A DNA stretch of 64,000 nt, taken from Rhodobiaceae bacterium. GTDB taxonomy: Bacteria > Pseudomonadota > Alphaproteobacteria > Parvibaculales > Parvibaculaceae. Shown here piece after piece: positions 38,717 through 42,396 of this stretch. The DNA is taken from contig CP030277.1 of NCBI GenBank assembly GCA_003330885.1, forward strand, positions 2,840,001 to 2,904,000, read 5' to 3'. How positions within the stretch are numbered: position 1 is the stretch's first letter; each line of letters opens with the position of its first letter. Under the pieces are notes generated by a model. That model did no database searches. It was not told where the DNA came from and saw only the letters and a list, made by a program, of their open reading frames with translations. A program made the translations under genes and the position numbers.

Positions 38717-40216
38717 CTATTTCATCGTGGGGATCACGAAGCTGGAGCCTTCTTTCACGCCAGTTGGCCAACGCGACGTCACGGTTTTCACCTTGGTATA
38801 GAACTTCACACCTTCCGTACCATGTTGGTTCGTATCGCCAAAGGCAGAGCGCTTCCAGCCACCGAATGAGTGATAGGCGAGCGGCACAGGGATCGGCACA
38901 TTGATGCCCACCATGCCCACATTCACCTTGGACGCGAAGCTGCGGGCGGCGTCTCCGTCTCGGGTGAAGATCGCTACACCGTTGCCGTATTGATGCTCAC
39001 TTGGGAGTTTGGCCGCTTCTTCAAACGTCTCCGCGCGCACGACAGAGAGAACCGGTCCGAATATCTCTTCTTTCCAGATGTCCATATCCGGCGTCACATT
39101 ATCAAAGAGCGAACCGCCAATGAAAAAGCCGTCTTCATAGCCCTGCAGTTCAAAGCCACGGCCATCCACAAGAAGGTCGGCGCCTTGCTCAACACCGCGA
39201 TCGATCCAGCCGGCAACCTTGTCGCGCTGCTCAGCTGTGACCATTGGGCCGTAATCCGCATCAACGTCCGTCGAAAGACCAACTTTCAGGCTTTCAACGC
39301 GCGGAATGAGTTTCTCAATCAACCGGTCACCGGTTTCCTTACCGACGGGCACAGCGACGGAGAGCGCCATGCAGCGTTCGCCAGCTGAACCATACCCAGC
39401 ACCGATGAGATCATCGACGACACGATCTAGGTCAGCGTCAGGCATGATGATGGCGTGGTTCTTTGCCCCACCCATAGCCTGCACCCGCTTCCCGTGGGCG
39501 GCACCTGTTGCGTAAATATATTCTGCAATCGCCGACGAACCGACAAAGCTGATTGCTTCAACCTGCGGGTCGGTCAGAAGCGTGTCGACCGCCTCCTTGT
39601 CCCCATTGACCACATTGAGCACACCGGCAGGGGCACCCGCTTCCATGAAAAGTTCTGCCAGACGCAATGGCACGCTCGGGTCTTTTTCCGATGGCTTGCA
39701 GACAAAAGTATTGCCGCAGGCAATTGCCACACCGAACATCCACATGGGGATCATGGCCGGAAAGTTGAACGGTGTAATACCGGCACACACGCCCAGTGGC
39801 TGGCGCATGGAGTACATATCAATGTCTGGGCCGGCACCTTCGGTGAATTCACCTTTCTGGAGATGGGGAATGCCACAGGCAAACTCGATCACCTCCAGAC
39901 CACGTTGAATATCGCCCCTACTGTCAGCGATCACCTTGCCATGTTCAGAAGAGAGCATCTCCGCCAGCTCATTCATATTGTCTTCAAGCAGACGTTTGAA
40001 ATCAAACATGACCCGCGCGCGGCGCTGCGGGTTAGTGGCGGCCCAGCCAGGGAATGCGGCAGCAGAAGAGGCAATACCTGCCCGTACTTCATCAGCGCTC
40101 GCAAGCGGTGTCTGAGCGGTAACCTCACCCGTATTCGGATTGAAGACACCTAGTGTCCGGCCACTCGTGCCAGCGACTTTGGCGCCATTGATAAAGTGAT
40201 GCAGCTCTTTGGCCAT
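38717..40216 (-). CDS. mmsA: CoA-acylating methylmalonate-semialdehyde dehydrogenase
   Basis: This enzyme of about 499 residues converts methylmalonate semialdehyde to propionyl-CoA in valine and myo-inositol breakdown. Hallmarks are SSEHGKVIADSRGDI, GVCAGITPFNFPAMIPMWM and the catalytic-Cys segment GSAGERCMALS. The start is ATG 40216, with GTG 40225 as an in-frame alternative. Monocistronic by its own terminator. Confidence 0.94.
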   Translation of the reverse strand: MAKELHHFINGAKVAGTSGRTLGVFNPNTGEVTAQTPLASADEVRAGIASSAAAFPGWAATNPQRRARVMFDFKRLLEDNMNELAEMLSSEHGKVIADSRGDIQRGLEVIEFACGIPHLQKGEFTEGAGPDIDMYSMRQPLGVCAGITPFNFPAMIPMWMFGVAIACGNTFVCKPSEKDPSVPLRLAELFMEAGAPAGVLNVVNGDKEAVDTLLTDPQVEAISFVGSSAIAEYIYATGAAHGKRVQAMGGAKNHAIIMPDADLDRVVDDLIGAGYGSAGERCMALSVAVPVGKETGDRLIEKLIPRVESLKVGLSTDVDADYGPMVTAEQRDKVAGWIDRGVEQGADLLVDGRGFELQGYEDGFFIGGSLFDNVTPDMDIWKEEIFGPVLSVVRAETFEEAAKLPSEHQYGNGVAIFTRDGDAARSFASKVNVGMVGINVPIPVPLAYHSFGGWKRSAFGDTNQHGTEGVKFYTKVKTVTSRWPTGVKEGSSFVIPTMK

Positions 40217-40380
40217 GCTCGTCACGCGATCCCGTTACCGAGTGCGTCTCCCTGGTTCAGATCTTCTTAATTTGCCCTCTGTTCCTAGCGCTCGCGACGG
40301 TTTGCTGCAAGAGCTTGAACCGTGAAGCACCGGACCCGCCCCACCAGGTGATCAAAATATTCGCCAGGGAAAAATGGATC

Positions 40381-41046
40381 TCAGGGCCGCTTCAGAAGCC
40401 AACCCACAATAAACGTCGCGGCAACCGCGCCTGCGAGCTGGGCGGCGATGAAGAGGGCTGCATTATCAGGATGAATGCCAGAAAATGTATCCGTAAAGGT
40501 GCGGGCAATTGTCACCGCCGGGTTGGCGAAAGACGTGGACGAGGTGAACCAATATCCAGCGGTGATGAAGAGCCCCACCGCATAGGGAACAGCCTGCGGC
40601 GCTGCCTTTATGCATCCGAGGATTGTGGTAACGAGGCCAAAAGTGGCAACAATCTCGCCGGTCCATTGGCCAGGGCCCGTGCGCACATTGGTGGAGCTTT
40701 GGATCAGCGACTGATCAAACATCAGGTGAGCCACCACGGCGCCAGCGACAGCAGCACAGACCTGCACCAGAACGTAAACACCTCCCTGTCCCCAGCCAAT
40801 TTCACGACGAAGGGCGAAGGCAAGCGTCACCGCGGGATTAAAGTGGGCGCCAGATATCGGCCCAAAGATCAAAATAAGAACTGCGAGAATAGCACCGGTG
40901 GCAATTGTGTTCCCCAAAAGCGCAATCGCGTCATTTCCACCTGCAAGGCTCTCGCCCATAATTCCCGACCCCACGACGGTGGCCAGCAAAAAGAATGTCC
41001 CAAGCGCCTCAGCTGCAAGGCGACGTCCAAAATCAATTTCCTGCAT
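40381..41046 (-). CDS. aqpS: Aquaglyceroporin of the arsenic operon (AqpS-like)
   Basis: The 221-residue MIP-family channel has two pore half-helices, FNPAVTLAF (NPA 70-72) and FANPAVTIA (NPA 175-177). The residue after the second NPA is Val rather than the Arg of ordinary aquaporins. A Val there is also reported for Sinorhizobium AqpS, which conducts arsenite. The stop-to-start distance from arsC is 6 bp, so it is the last gene of arsR-arsI-arsC-aqpS. The likely role is letting arsenite made by ArsC flow out of the cell. Confidence 0.88.
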   Translation of the reverse strand: MQEIDFGRRLAAEALGTFFLLATVVGSGIMGESLAGGNDAIALLGNTIATGAILAVLILIFGPISGAHFNPAVTLAFALRREIGWGQGGVYVLVQVCAAVAGAVVAHLMFDQSLIQSSTNVRTGPGQWTGEIVATFGLVTTILGCIKAAPQAVPYAVGLFITAGYWFTSSTSFANPAVTIARTFTDTFSGIHPDNAALFIAAQLAGAVAATFIVGWLLKRP

Positions 41047-41052
41047 GAAAAA

Positions 41053-41580
41053 TTAGGCGCTTTCGTTCTTCTGATCGGTGGAGCTCTTACCGATTTTGTC
41101 CAATTCGCGTTTCAGCGCGAGCTCATCCAAACTGGACAGCGGAAGGTTTGCAAAAATATCAATCCGCGCCCTGATTTGACGAAACACATCCAGAAAGATC
41201 GCCCGCTTCTCTACGTCCGGACCTTCAAAAGCAGCCGGGTCTTCAAACGGCCAATGGGCGCTCGCAGGATGCCCTGGCCAAACCGGACAGACTTCTCCAG
41301 CTGCATTGTCACAAACCGTAAAAATGAAATCCATCTGCGGCGCATCATCAGCAGCAAACTCATCCCACGACTTGGACCGCAGACCATCGACAGAGATCTT
41401 CGCAATCTTGAGCGTTTCCAAAGCCGTCTCATTGGGCGCACCTGTCGGCTGGCTTCCCGCCGAGAACGCCTGAAAGGACGCTCCCGGTAGGGAATTAAGA
41501 TAGGCCTCCGCAAGCAGACTGCGTGCGGAGTTACCGGTGCATAAGAACAGCACGTTGTAGGGGGTCAATCGGTCACTCAT
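41053..41580 (-). CDS. arsC: Arsenate reductase, thioredoxin-coupled (LMW phosphatase type)
   Basis: The 175-residue protein reduces arsenate to arsenite. The phosphatase loop is CTGNSAR (Cys14 to Arg20) and two further cysteines, Cys90 and Cys98 in FTVCDNAAGEVCPVWPG, fit the three-cysteine relay of thioredoxin-dependent ArsC. The C-terminal 40 residues are a helical extension seen in related proteins. It lies 3 bp after arsI. Confidence 0.93.
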   Translation of the reverse strand: MSDRLTPYNVLFLCTGNSARSLLAEAYLNSLPGASFQAFSAGSQPTGAPNETALETLKIAKISVDGLRSKSWDEFAADDAPQMDFIFTVCDNAAGEVCPVWPGHPASAHWPFEDPAAFEGPDVEKRAIFLDVFRQIRARIDIFANLPLSSLDELALKRELDKIGKSSTDQKNESA

Positions 41581-41583
41581 CGC

Positions 41584-42042
41584 TTAGCAACATCCGCCCT
41601 TGTGCGTGGGCACCGGCGTTTCTCGGACAAGCTCAGTGGCCACGGCTTCGGGTCGCAAGTCGGGTCCCGTTCCCCGCTCTTCCGTCTGGTGTTTCGTGTG
41701 GAAGGCTTCCCACATCACACCGTCCGGGTCTGTCGTCCAGCTCTTTTCTGACTTGTGGTAGCAGCAGGTCGTGACACCTTCAGGAAGATAGGGACCTTCT
41801 GCTTGTTTGAACTGTTCGAAGAGTGGTTCAAGCTCATCTTCGCTCTCAACCTGTATCCCAGCATGATTGAAACCCGTCTCTGACTGTGCAGGCTCCACCA
41901 CGAAATTCACCCGAGGGTCGTCCAACATCCACTTCGCATAATCCTCGCGCTTCGTGGTTGGTTCTTGACCAAACATGGCCGAATAGAAACTGATCGACTT
42001 TTCCAGGTCTGCAACTGCAAAGCTCACATGTAGTCTTTTCAT
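41584..42042 (-). CDS. arsI: ArsI-type C-As lyase (VOC dioxygenase)
   Basis: This vicinal-oxygen-chelate protein of about 152 residues strips the methyl group from trivalent methylarsenicals. Candidate Fe(II) ligands are His5, His60 and Glu112; the arsenic-binding vicinal cysteines are Cys93-Cys94 in TTCCYHKSEKSW. The C-terminus ends in another CC pair. The ATG overlaps the arsR stop as ATGA, with GAGGAGACAGGAAC upstream. Its closeness to arsR and arsC supports ArsI over the related CadI label. Confidence 0.9.
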   Translation of the reverse strand: MKRLHVSFAVADLEKSISFYSAMFGQEPTTKREDYAKWMLDDPRVNFVVEPAQSETGFNHAGIQVESEDELEPLFEQFKQAEGPYLPEGVTTCCYHKSEKSWTTDPDGVMWEAFHTKHQTEERGTGPDLRPEAVATELVRETPVPTHKGGCC

Positions 42043-42371
42043 GTTCCTGTCTCCTCTAGTGCGGGTGCACACGCACCCTGACAACAATCTTCCAAAAGGT
42101 AATCGGCAAGGGCGCGCATGCCGCCGAGATTTGCCGTGTAGATAATCGAGCGTCCATCACGACGCGCAGAAACAAGTCCCGCCCGCGTGAGCTCCTTTAA
42201 ATGAAAGGAGAGGGTCGGCGCTGCGACCCCCAATTGCTCTGCGAGACCGCCAGCTGGCAATCCGGCCTCATCTGCATTTGGCGAATGGGCCCGCACCAGC
42301 GTGCGGAATATCTCCAAACGGGTTTCCTGAGCGAGCGCACCAAGTGCCTCTATAGCGTTTATCATTTCCAT
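42039..42371 (-). CDS. arsR: ArsR-family arsenite-responsive repressor
   Basis: The 110-residue winged-helix repressor has its recognition region at about 39-75 (LAEQLGVAAPTLSFHLKELTRAGL and DGRSIIYTA). Three cysteines near the end, Cys96, Cys97 and Cys101 (EDCCQGAC), resemble the C-terminal cysteine triad reported for Acidithiobacillus ferrooxidans ArsR rather than the CVC of plasmid R773 ArsR. First gene of the operon. The stop and the arsI start share ATGA. Confidence 0.93.
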   Translation of the reverse strand: MEMINAIEALGALAQETRLEIFRTLVRAHSPNADEAGLPAGGLAEQLGVAAPTLSFHLKELTRAGLVSARRDGRSIIYTANLGGMRALADYLLEDCCQGACAPALEETGT

Positions 42372-42380
42372 ATTTTGATA

Positions 42381-42396
42381 ATTATAGAATTATAAT
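42381..42396. promoter_or_regulatory. AT-rich inverted repeat, probable ArsR operator / -10 region
   Basis: ATTATA-GAAT-TATAAT is a perfect 6-bp inverted repeat 10 bp upstream of the arsR ATG, in otherwise GC-rich DNA. The minus strand reads TATAAT, a consensus -10 box, so a bound ArsR would cover the promoter. TTGAAA at 42406-42401 on the minus strand is a possible -35 with short spacing. Confidence 0.6.

Follow-up and report, generated by a model that had tools for sequence, protein, structure and literature searches.

An arsR-arsI-arsC-aqpS operon and the apparent exchange of an AqpS channel and an Acr3 pump at one locus

The operon and its predicted products

We analyzed a 64-kb stretch of DNA (the window) from a Rhodobiaceae bacterium. 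Four open reading frames (ORFs), arsR, arsI, arsC, and aqpS, lie on the minus strand of the window (Table 1), where an earlier note made from the sequence alone had placed them. The gene identities and the tight packing described in that note are borne out by curated family models and by the ORF coordinates: arsR and arsI share an ATGA, and gaps of 3 bp and 6 bp separate arsI from arsC and arsC from aqpS. Set codon by codon against their counterparts in two congeners (G001 and G003), the four genes have dN/dS values of 0.02–0.08, although most of these comparisons are near saturation at synonymous sites; the genes are thus under purifying selection, their proteins are maintained, and the ORFs are not chance readings. 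The G+C content of the operon (55.4%) is close to that of the window (54.9%). The dehydrogenase gene downstream serves as a syntenic anchor and lies outside the arsenic system. Scans of the 64-kb window for Rfam families and for tRNA genes found nothing.

Table 1. Features of the ars operon and its downstream neighbor (window coordinates)
Feature	Coordinates	Strand	Description
arsR	42039..42371	-	ArsR/SmtB repressor, 110 aa; NF033788 64.3 bits, cut-off 55
arsI	41584..42042	-	VOC-fold ArsI/CadI family, 152 aa; NF041414 118.9 bits, cut-off 116
arsC	41053..41580	-	LMW-phosphatase-type arsenate reductase, 175 aa; PF01451 LMWPc 57.1 bits, cut-off 23.2
aqpS	40381..41046	-	MIP channel, 221 aa; PF00230 MIP 97.4 bits, cut-off 25
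putative ArsR operator	42378..42395	-	TTATAATTCTATAATTAT; inverted repeat ATAATT-N4-AATTAT at 42378-42393
methylmalonate-semialdehyde dehydrogenase gene	38717..40225	-	TIGR01722 678.7 bits, cut-off 448.5

ArsR has a C96-C97 pair and C101 close to its C-terminus, resembling the type-2 As(III) site of AfArsR (C95, C96, and C102; PMC11868830), except that the third cysteine lies 4 residues past the pair here and 6 residues past it in AfArsR. SpArsR, which is without the third cysteine, is reported to respond to methylarsenite but to be unresponsive to As(III) (PMC11868830). The window's ArsR has a third cysteine and is therefore predicted to be an As(III) sensor. The putative operator overlaps a sigma-70-like −10 element (promoter-like TTGAAA-17-AATTAT; three promoter-like matches were found in the region, with 0.9 expected by chance). 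A search within the 64-kb window placed the putative operator at one position, with 0 expected.

ArsI exceeds the cut-off of NF041414, a model that spans both ArsI and CadI, by only 2.9 bits. Its best PDB matches are 5d4f and 5c4p, which we take to be Thermomonospora curvata ArsI, with identity in 40 of 119 aligned columns. The vicinal pair C93-C94 aligns with C95-C96 of the 5d4f chain, and residues H5, H60, and E112 align with Q5, H62, and E114 (position 5 of that chain being Gln), which are presumably the metal ligands. The alignment is consistent with a C-As lyase that would turn methylarsenite into arsenite.

The cysteines of ArsC are C14, within CTGNSARS, and C90 and C98, which we take to be the P-loop cysteine and the two shuttle cysteines, respectively. 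The protein scored 76.3 bits against TIGR02691, the equivalog model for the pI258 thioredoxin-coupled ArsC, below the cut-off of 174.3, and is therefore named LMWP-type only. Arsenate reduction is its predicted activity.

Over 100% of the query, the channel shares 57.8% identity with Sinorhizobium meliloti AqpS; its two NPA motifs start from positions 70 and 175 of the numbering used here. In the sequence alignment its filter residues T50/Y165/S172/V178 correspond to T49/Y164/S171/V177 of S. meliloti AqpS, whereas GlpF has W/G/F/R and AqpZ has F/H/T/R at what we take to be their filter positions, so that Val178 occupies the place of the filter arginine of GlpF and AqpZ. The earlier note had described an NPA-Val aquaglyceroporin, which the motifs and Val178 confirm; the loss of pore residues that it had set against its own reading is absent, all four filter residues matching AqpS. 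Arsenite can also enter through a channel, a point against an exit role. S. meliloti AqpS is reported to conduct As(OH)3 (PMC6205960; PMC4435449) and to make cells resistant to arsenite formed internally but sensitive to external arsenite (PMC6205960). The filter arginine of AQP9 may be needed for the movement of As(III) and MAs(III) (PMC1440775), and valine at this position speaks against As(III) exit; yet S. meliloti AqpS also has valine there. By its likeness to that protein, the window's channel would carry As(OH)3 outward.

Arsenic genes elsewhere in the genome

The genome (G000) is a single contig of 3,862,255 bases, with an estimated completeness of 100%. Searches of all of it at E ≤ 0.001 found no Acr3, ArsB, ArsP, ArsJ, or ArsH. 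The absence of arsB and acr3 from the operon, as claimed in the earlier note, thus holds for the genome as well, as does that of arsH, and a pump gene elsewhere, which the note had named as evidence against its reading, did not appear among the Acr3, ArsB, ArsP, and ArsJ families. The statement that there is no pump therefore holds beyond the operon for these four families. An Acr3 elsewhere under the same operator was considered and dropped: the genome has neither Acr3 nor ArsB, and the operator lies at one place in the window. The sole other MIP gene of the genome encodes an AqpZ-type F/H/T/R filter.

For arsM, which the note had listed with arsB, acr3, and arsH as genes to look for, the outcome was divided: an ArsM-like gene is present, and it falls below the curated cut-offs. 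None of the genome's 17 matches to the ArsM model NF008823 exceeds its cut-off, and since the model also matched 14/14 control genomes, most of the 17 are ordinary methyltransferases. The ArsM-like protein, of 340 aa and ending in vicinal cysteines (G000:C1:611646-612668; L092:7647-8669), scored 378 bits with NF040538 (cut-off 500) and 203 bits with NF008823 (cut-off 263), and because it is under both cut-offs we call it ArsM-like only. Its best match was an arsinothricin-type ArsM model, again below cut-off; among the ORFs around the gene, no partner gene of an arsinothricin cluster was recognized by eye. The view that the genome is without ArsM was set aside in light of this putative gene (611,646-612,668). 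The cell may therefore produce methylarsenite of its own, with the putative ArsM as the candidate enzyme.

Channel and pump genes in the genus, the family, and beyond

In all seven genomes of the genus, the ars operon lies before the same dehydrogenase gene (matched by sequence similarity), which is also found 3' of the ars operon in several other family members by the same measure. The last slot of the operon is occupied by aqpS in five of the seven (G000, G001, G003, G004, and G005) and by acr3 in the other two (G002 and G006). G005, whose channel gene is split over two reading frames in an assembly that contains ambiguous bases, was counted as AqpS-bearing. The best-conserved upstream stretch in the seven genomes is the bases directly before arsR, where TTATAWTTCTATAATTAT is present in 7/7, in the aqpS and acr3 forms alike. 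The inverted repeat is perfect in three genomes (G000, G002, and G004) and has one changed arm base in the other four. Since the putative operator is present whichever gene ends the operon, we predict that a single ArsR switch controls the channel exit and the pump exit alike. AqpS and Acr3 thus appear to be an interchangeable part at one locus within the genus.

A census of 37 family genomes, including that of the window, gave AqpS in 8 (G000, G001, G003, G004, G005, G013, G014, and G017), Acr3 over the cut-off in 25, and ArsB in one (G007). Close AqpS relatives were defined by scores above 100 bits; weaker MIP matches, at 43 bits or less, were not counted. None of the 37 genomes has two of the three transporters, and three have none of them (G011, with 68% completeness, G031, and G033). 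The exclusion between AqpS and any pump in the family has a Fisher p of 4.3e-6, uncorrected for kinship.

ArsI was found in 32 of the 61 genomes searched (E ≤ 1e-12), and we read 30 ArsI loci including that of the window, 27 from the family and 3 from outside it. With stretches extended, the family ArsI operons end in acr3 in 17 of the 27 and in aqp in 6; the remaining 4 loci are too short to tell or are without arsC after arsI. Two of the three loci outside the family (L130 and L132) have ArsI with AqpS. Two family genomes, G013 and G014, have arsR-arsC-aqpS without arsI, again before the same dehydrogenase gene. A point against a single locus is G017, whose AqpS operon is elsewhere, before an MlaE-type permease gene and not the dehydrogenase gene. 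Well-supported branches of the ArsI tree require the last gene to have changed at least twice, whereas the ArsC and dehydrogenase trees force only one change each; all three trees have weak internal support, and the G006 ArsI row is without a clean N-terminus.

In three genomes, arsI and arsC are separated by a TauD/TfdA-family dioxygenase gene, at L146:2932-3912 (G002), L152:2547-3575 (G028), and L149:2946-3947 (G005), the L149 copy being judged by its similar start only. The window's operon is without it.

Public genomes were scanned for the channel, giving at least 578 relatives, the best 80 of which were kept. Neighbors were scored with named reference proteins; an overlap filter dropped the ArsI of L079, and the 4-kb neighbor counts are hence minima. 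All-against-all BLAST clustering of the neighbors was discarded because it merged overlapping reading frames into one group. ArsI lies near AqpS in seven of the 80 best loci (L031, L056, L071, L072, L077, L078, and L079). The order arsR-arsI-arsC-aqpS occurs, among the best 80 of at least 578, in two Sphingopyxis loci (L071 and L072) and one Novosphingobium locus (L077), and a Hydrogenophilales locus (L056) has the same order with two arsC-like genes. The ArsI proteins of the Sphingopyxis, Novosphingobium, and L056 loci score 136–152 bits against the window's protein. On a Sphingomonas daechungensis plasmid, arsI-arsC is followed by an unannotated channel match in two pieces. ArsH is within 4 kb of AqpS in at least 9 of the 80 best loci. 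The earlier note had held the pairing of arsI with aqpS to be less common than arsR-aqpS-arsC-arsH, which the counts among these nearest relatives (7/80 and at least 9/80) do not sustain; arsI beside aqpS is recurrent, and the combination is not unique.

Acr3 was recognized within 4 kb of AqpS in none of the 80 best loci, many of whose contigs end sooner. In 47 AqpS-bearing genomes outside the family, a subset of the 80 loci mostly on longer contigs, Acr3 gave some match in 10 and a match over the cut-off in 5. Exclusion of Acr3 by AqpS is therefore not absolute outside the family, where it is a tendency only.

Two other gene neighborhoods of the channel were seen in this set. In seven loci (L009, L015, L018, L020, L027, L030, and L041; five titled Rhodobacterales), AqpS is accompanied by arsD and by genes for a MalY/PatB-like protein and an ArsA ATPase, and no Acr3 was recognized within 4 kb; ArsA beside a channel rather than a pump is odd. 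A search of four of these genomes (L015, L020, L027, and L041) for Acr3 found it elsewhere in one, that of L020. Four further loci (L099, on a Ruegeria sp. YS9 plasmid, L035, L047, and L052) have AqpS in the vicinity of ArsH and MalY/PatB genes; a gene resembling threonine/serine dehydratase is also present in L099, L035, and L047, and one resembling aspartoacylase in L099 and L052. Roseobacters and their relatives possibly have here an unknown module linked to arsenic or to amino acids.

Known operons and the proposed exit of arsenite

A survey of 685 ars operons counted 717 transporters, 18 of them MIPs, and 18/18 of the MIPs were without another transporter (PMC4435449), so the absence of a pump from a MIP-bearing ars operon is the rule. 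The window's operon, with no other known arsenic transporter, is of this kind. The arsR-aqpS-arsC-arsH operon on pSymB of S. meliloti likewise has AqpS, ArsR control, and no pump in the operon, but differs in gene order and in having a glutaredoxin-type ArsC and ArsH, where the window has an LMW-phosphatase ArsC and ArsI. The Sphingopyxis and Novosphingobium loci (L071, L072, and L077) have the same four families in the same order in other lineages; one Sphingopyxis genome (G100, with L071) additionally has Acr3 elsewhere. SAR11 bacteria have an LMWPc_ArsC with AqpS downstream (PMC6426599), as here, whereas the part of that article on the pair mentions no arsI alongside, the only ArsI-like domain there being that of a csdB.

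Operons with the same first three genes and a pump last are arsR-arsI-arsC-acr3 on pNL2 of Novosphingobium aromaticivorans and on an Azospirillum thermophilum plasmid, and the 17 arsI-acr3 operons of the family, with an extra gene between arsI and arsC in G002 and G028. The Thiomonas arsRICB operon has the same first three genes in the same order, with an ArsB-type pump at its end in place of AqpS (PMC4589449). Further published arsI operons with an ArsB-type pump are Cupriavidus arsICBR, arsRIC1C2BC3H1P, and Pseudomonas arsRICBCH. The main text on these four published operons, and that of PMC6514093, describes no channel beside arsI, and no paper title found in the open-licence literature concerns an operon that joins arsI and aqpS or an exchange of Acr3 and AqpS.

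We consider it likely, with good confidence, that the locus is an ArsR-controlled detoxification operon in which AqpS replaces Acr3 as a channel exit. ArsC would reduce arsenate to arsenite, and ArsI would cleave trivalent methylarsenite, supplied by neighbors or made by the cell's putative ArsM, into arsenite and formaldehyde. Uncharged As(OH)3 would leave via AqpS down the gradient built inside by ArsC and ArsI. Filling the slot held by Acr3 in some close relatives, AqpS would stand in for it, and our preferred reading makes the channel an interchangeable way out for the As(III) that ArsC and ArsI may form. We infer arsenate reduction, demethylation, and direction of flow from family membership; transport and induction are likewise predictions.

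It is unlikely that ArsI is instead a CadI-like or other metal-thiol VOC enzyme: the narrow score margin with a model that joins ArsI and CadI would allow it, but the vicinal cysteine pair and the three putative ligand positions align with 5d4f, and arsR adjoins arsI in 29 of the 30 ArsI loci read. The exit might also be some other unrecognized active transporter encoded elsewhere, with AqpS taking up a different small neutral solute. That the genome search spanned only the Acr3, ArsB, ArsP, and ArsJ families leaves room for such a transporter; the position of aqpS in the operon, the exclusion with Acr3 and ArsB in the family, and the filter identical to that of AqpS make this very improbable.

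AqpS might, finally, act mainly in both directions, letting in MAs(III) for demethylation by ArsI and letting out As(III) through the same pore, with the one-carbon fragment oxidized for energy. SAR11 bacteria, some with the ArsC-AqpS pair, are reported to oxidize DMA methyl groups to CO2, and ATP rises in HTCC7211 on DMA and MMA (PMC6426599); AQP9, an aquaglyceroporin, conducts MAs(III) (PMC1440775). The recurrence of arsI beside aqpS among the best 80 loci also fits. However, ArsI loci of the family are paired with acr3 more often than with aqp (17/27 vs 6/27), which points to detoxification; G013 and G014 have the channel operon at the same dehydrogenase gene without arsI, and the window's operon is without a one-carbon gene. 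We regard such scavenging as a long shot, and it is highly doubtful that the swap from Acr3 to AqpS turned a one-way detoxification into a two-way exchange, with ArsI setting the gradient and supplying the one-carbon fragment. Were it so, close species would differ in feeding on methylated arsenic and merely surviving it.

The operon, which we read as a detoxification operon with a channel exit, is otherwise an ordinary AqpS-type operon with ArsI; what is added here is comparative, the apparent exchange of channel and pump at one locus. In the reviews consulted, S. meliloti is the main basis for the view that a passive channel can do a pump's work. Here, relatives with the same kind of regulator, operator, ArsI, ArsC, and chromosomal place differ in pump versus channel, and the genus is a natural swap experiment bearing on when a downhill exit suffices and whether the channel admits methylarsenite.
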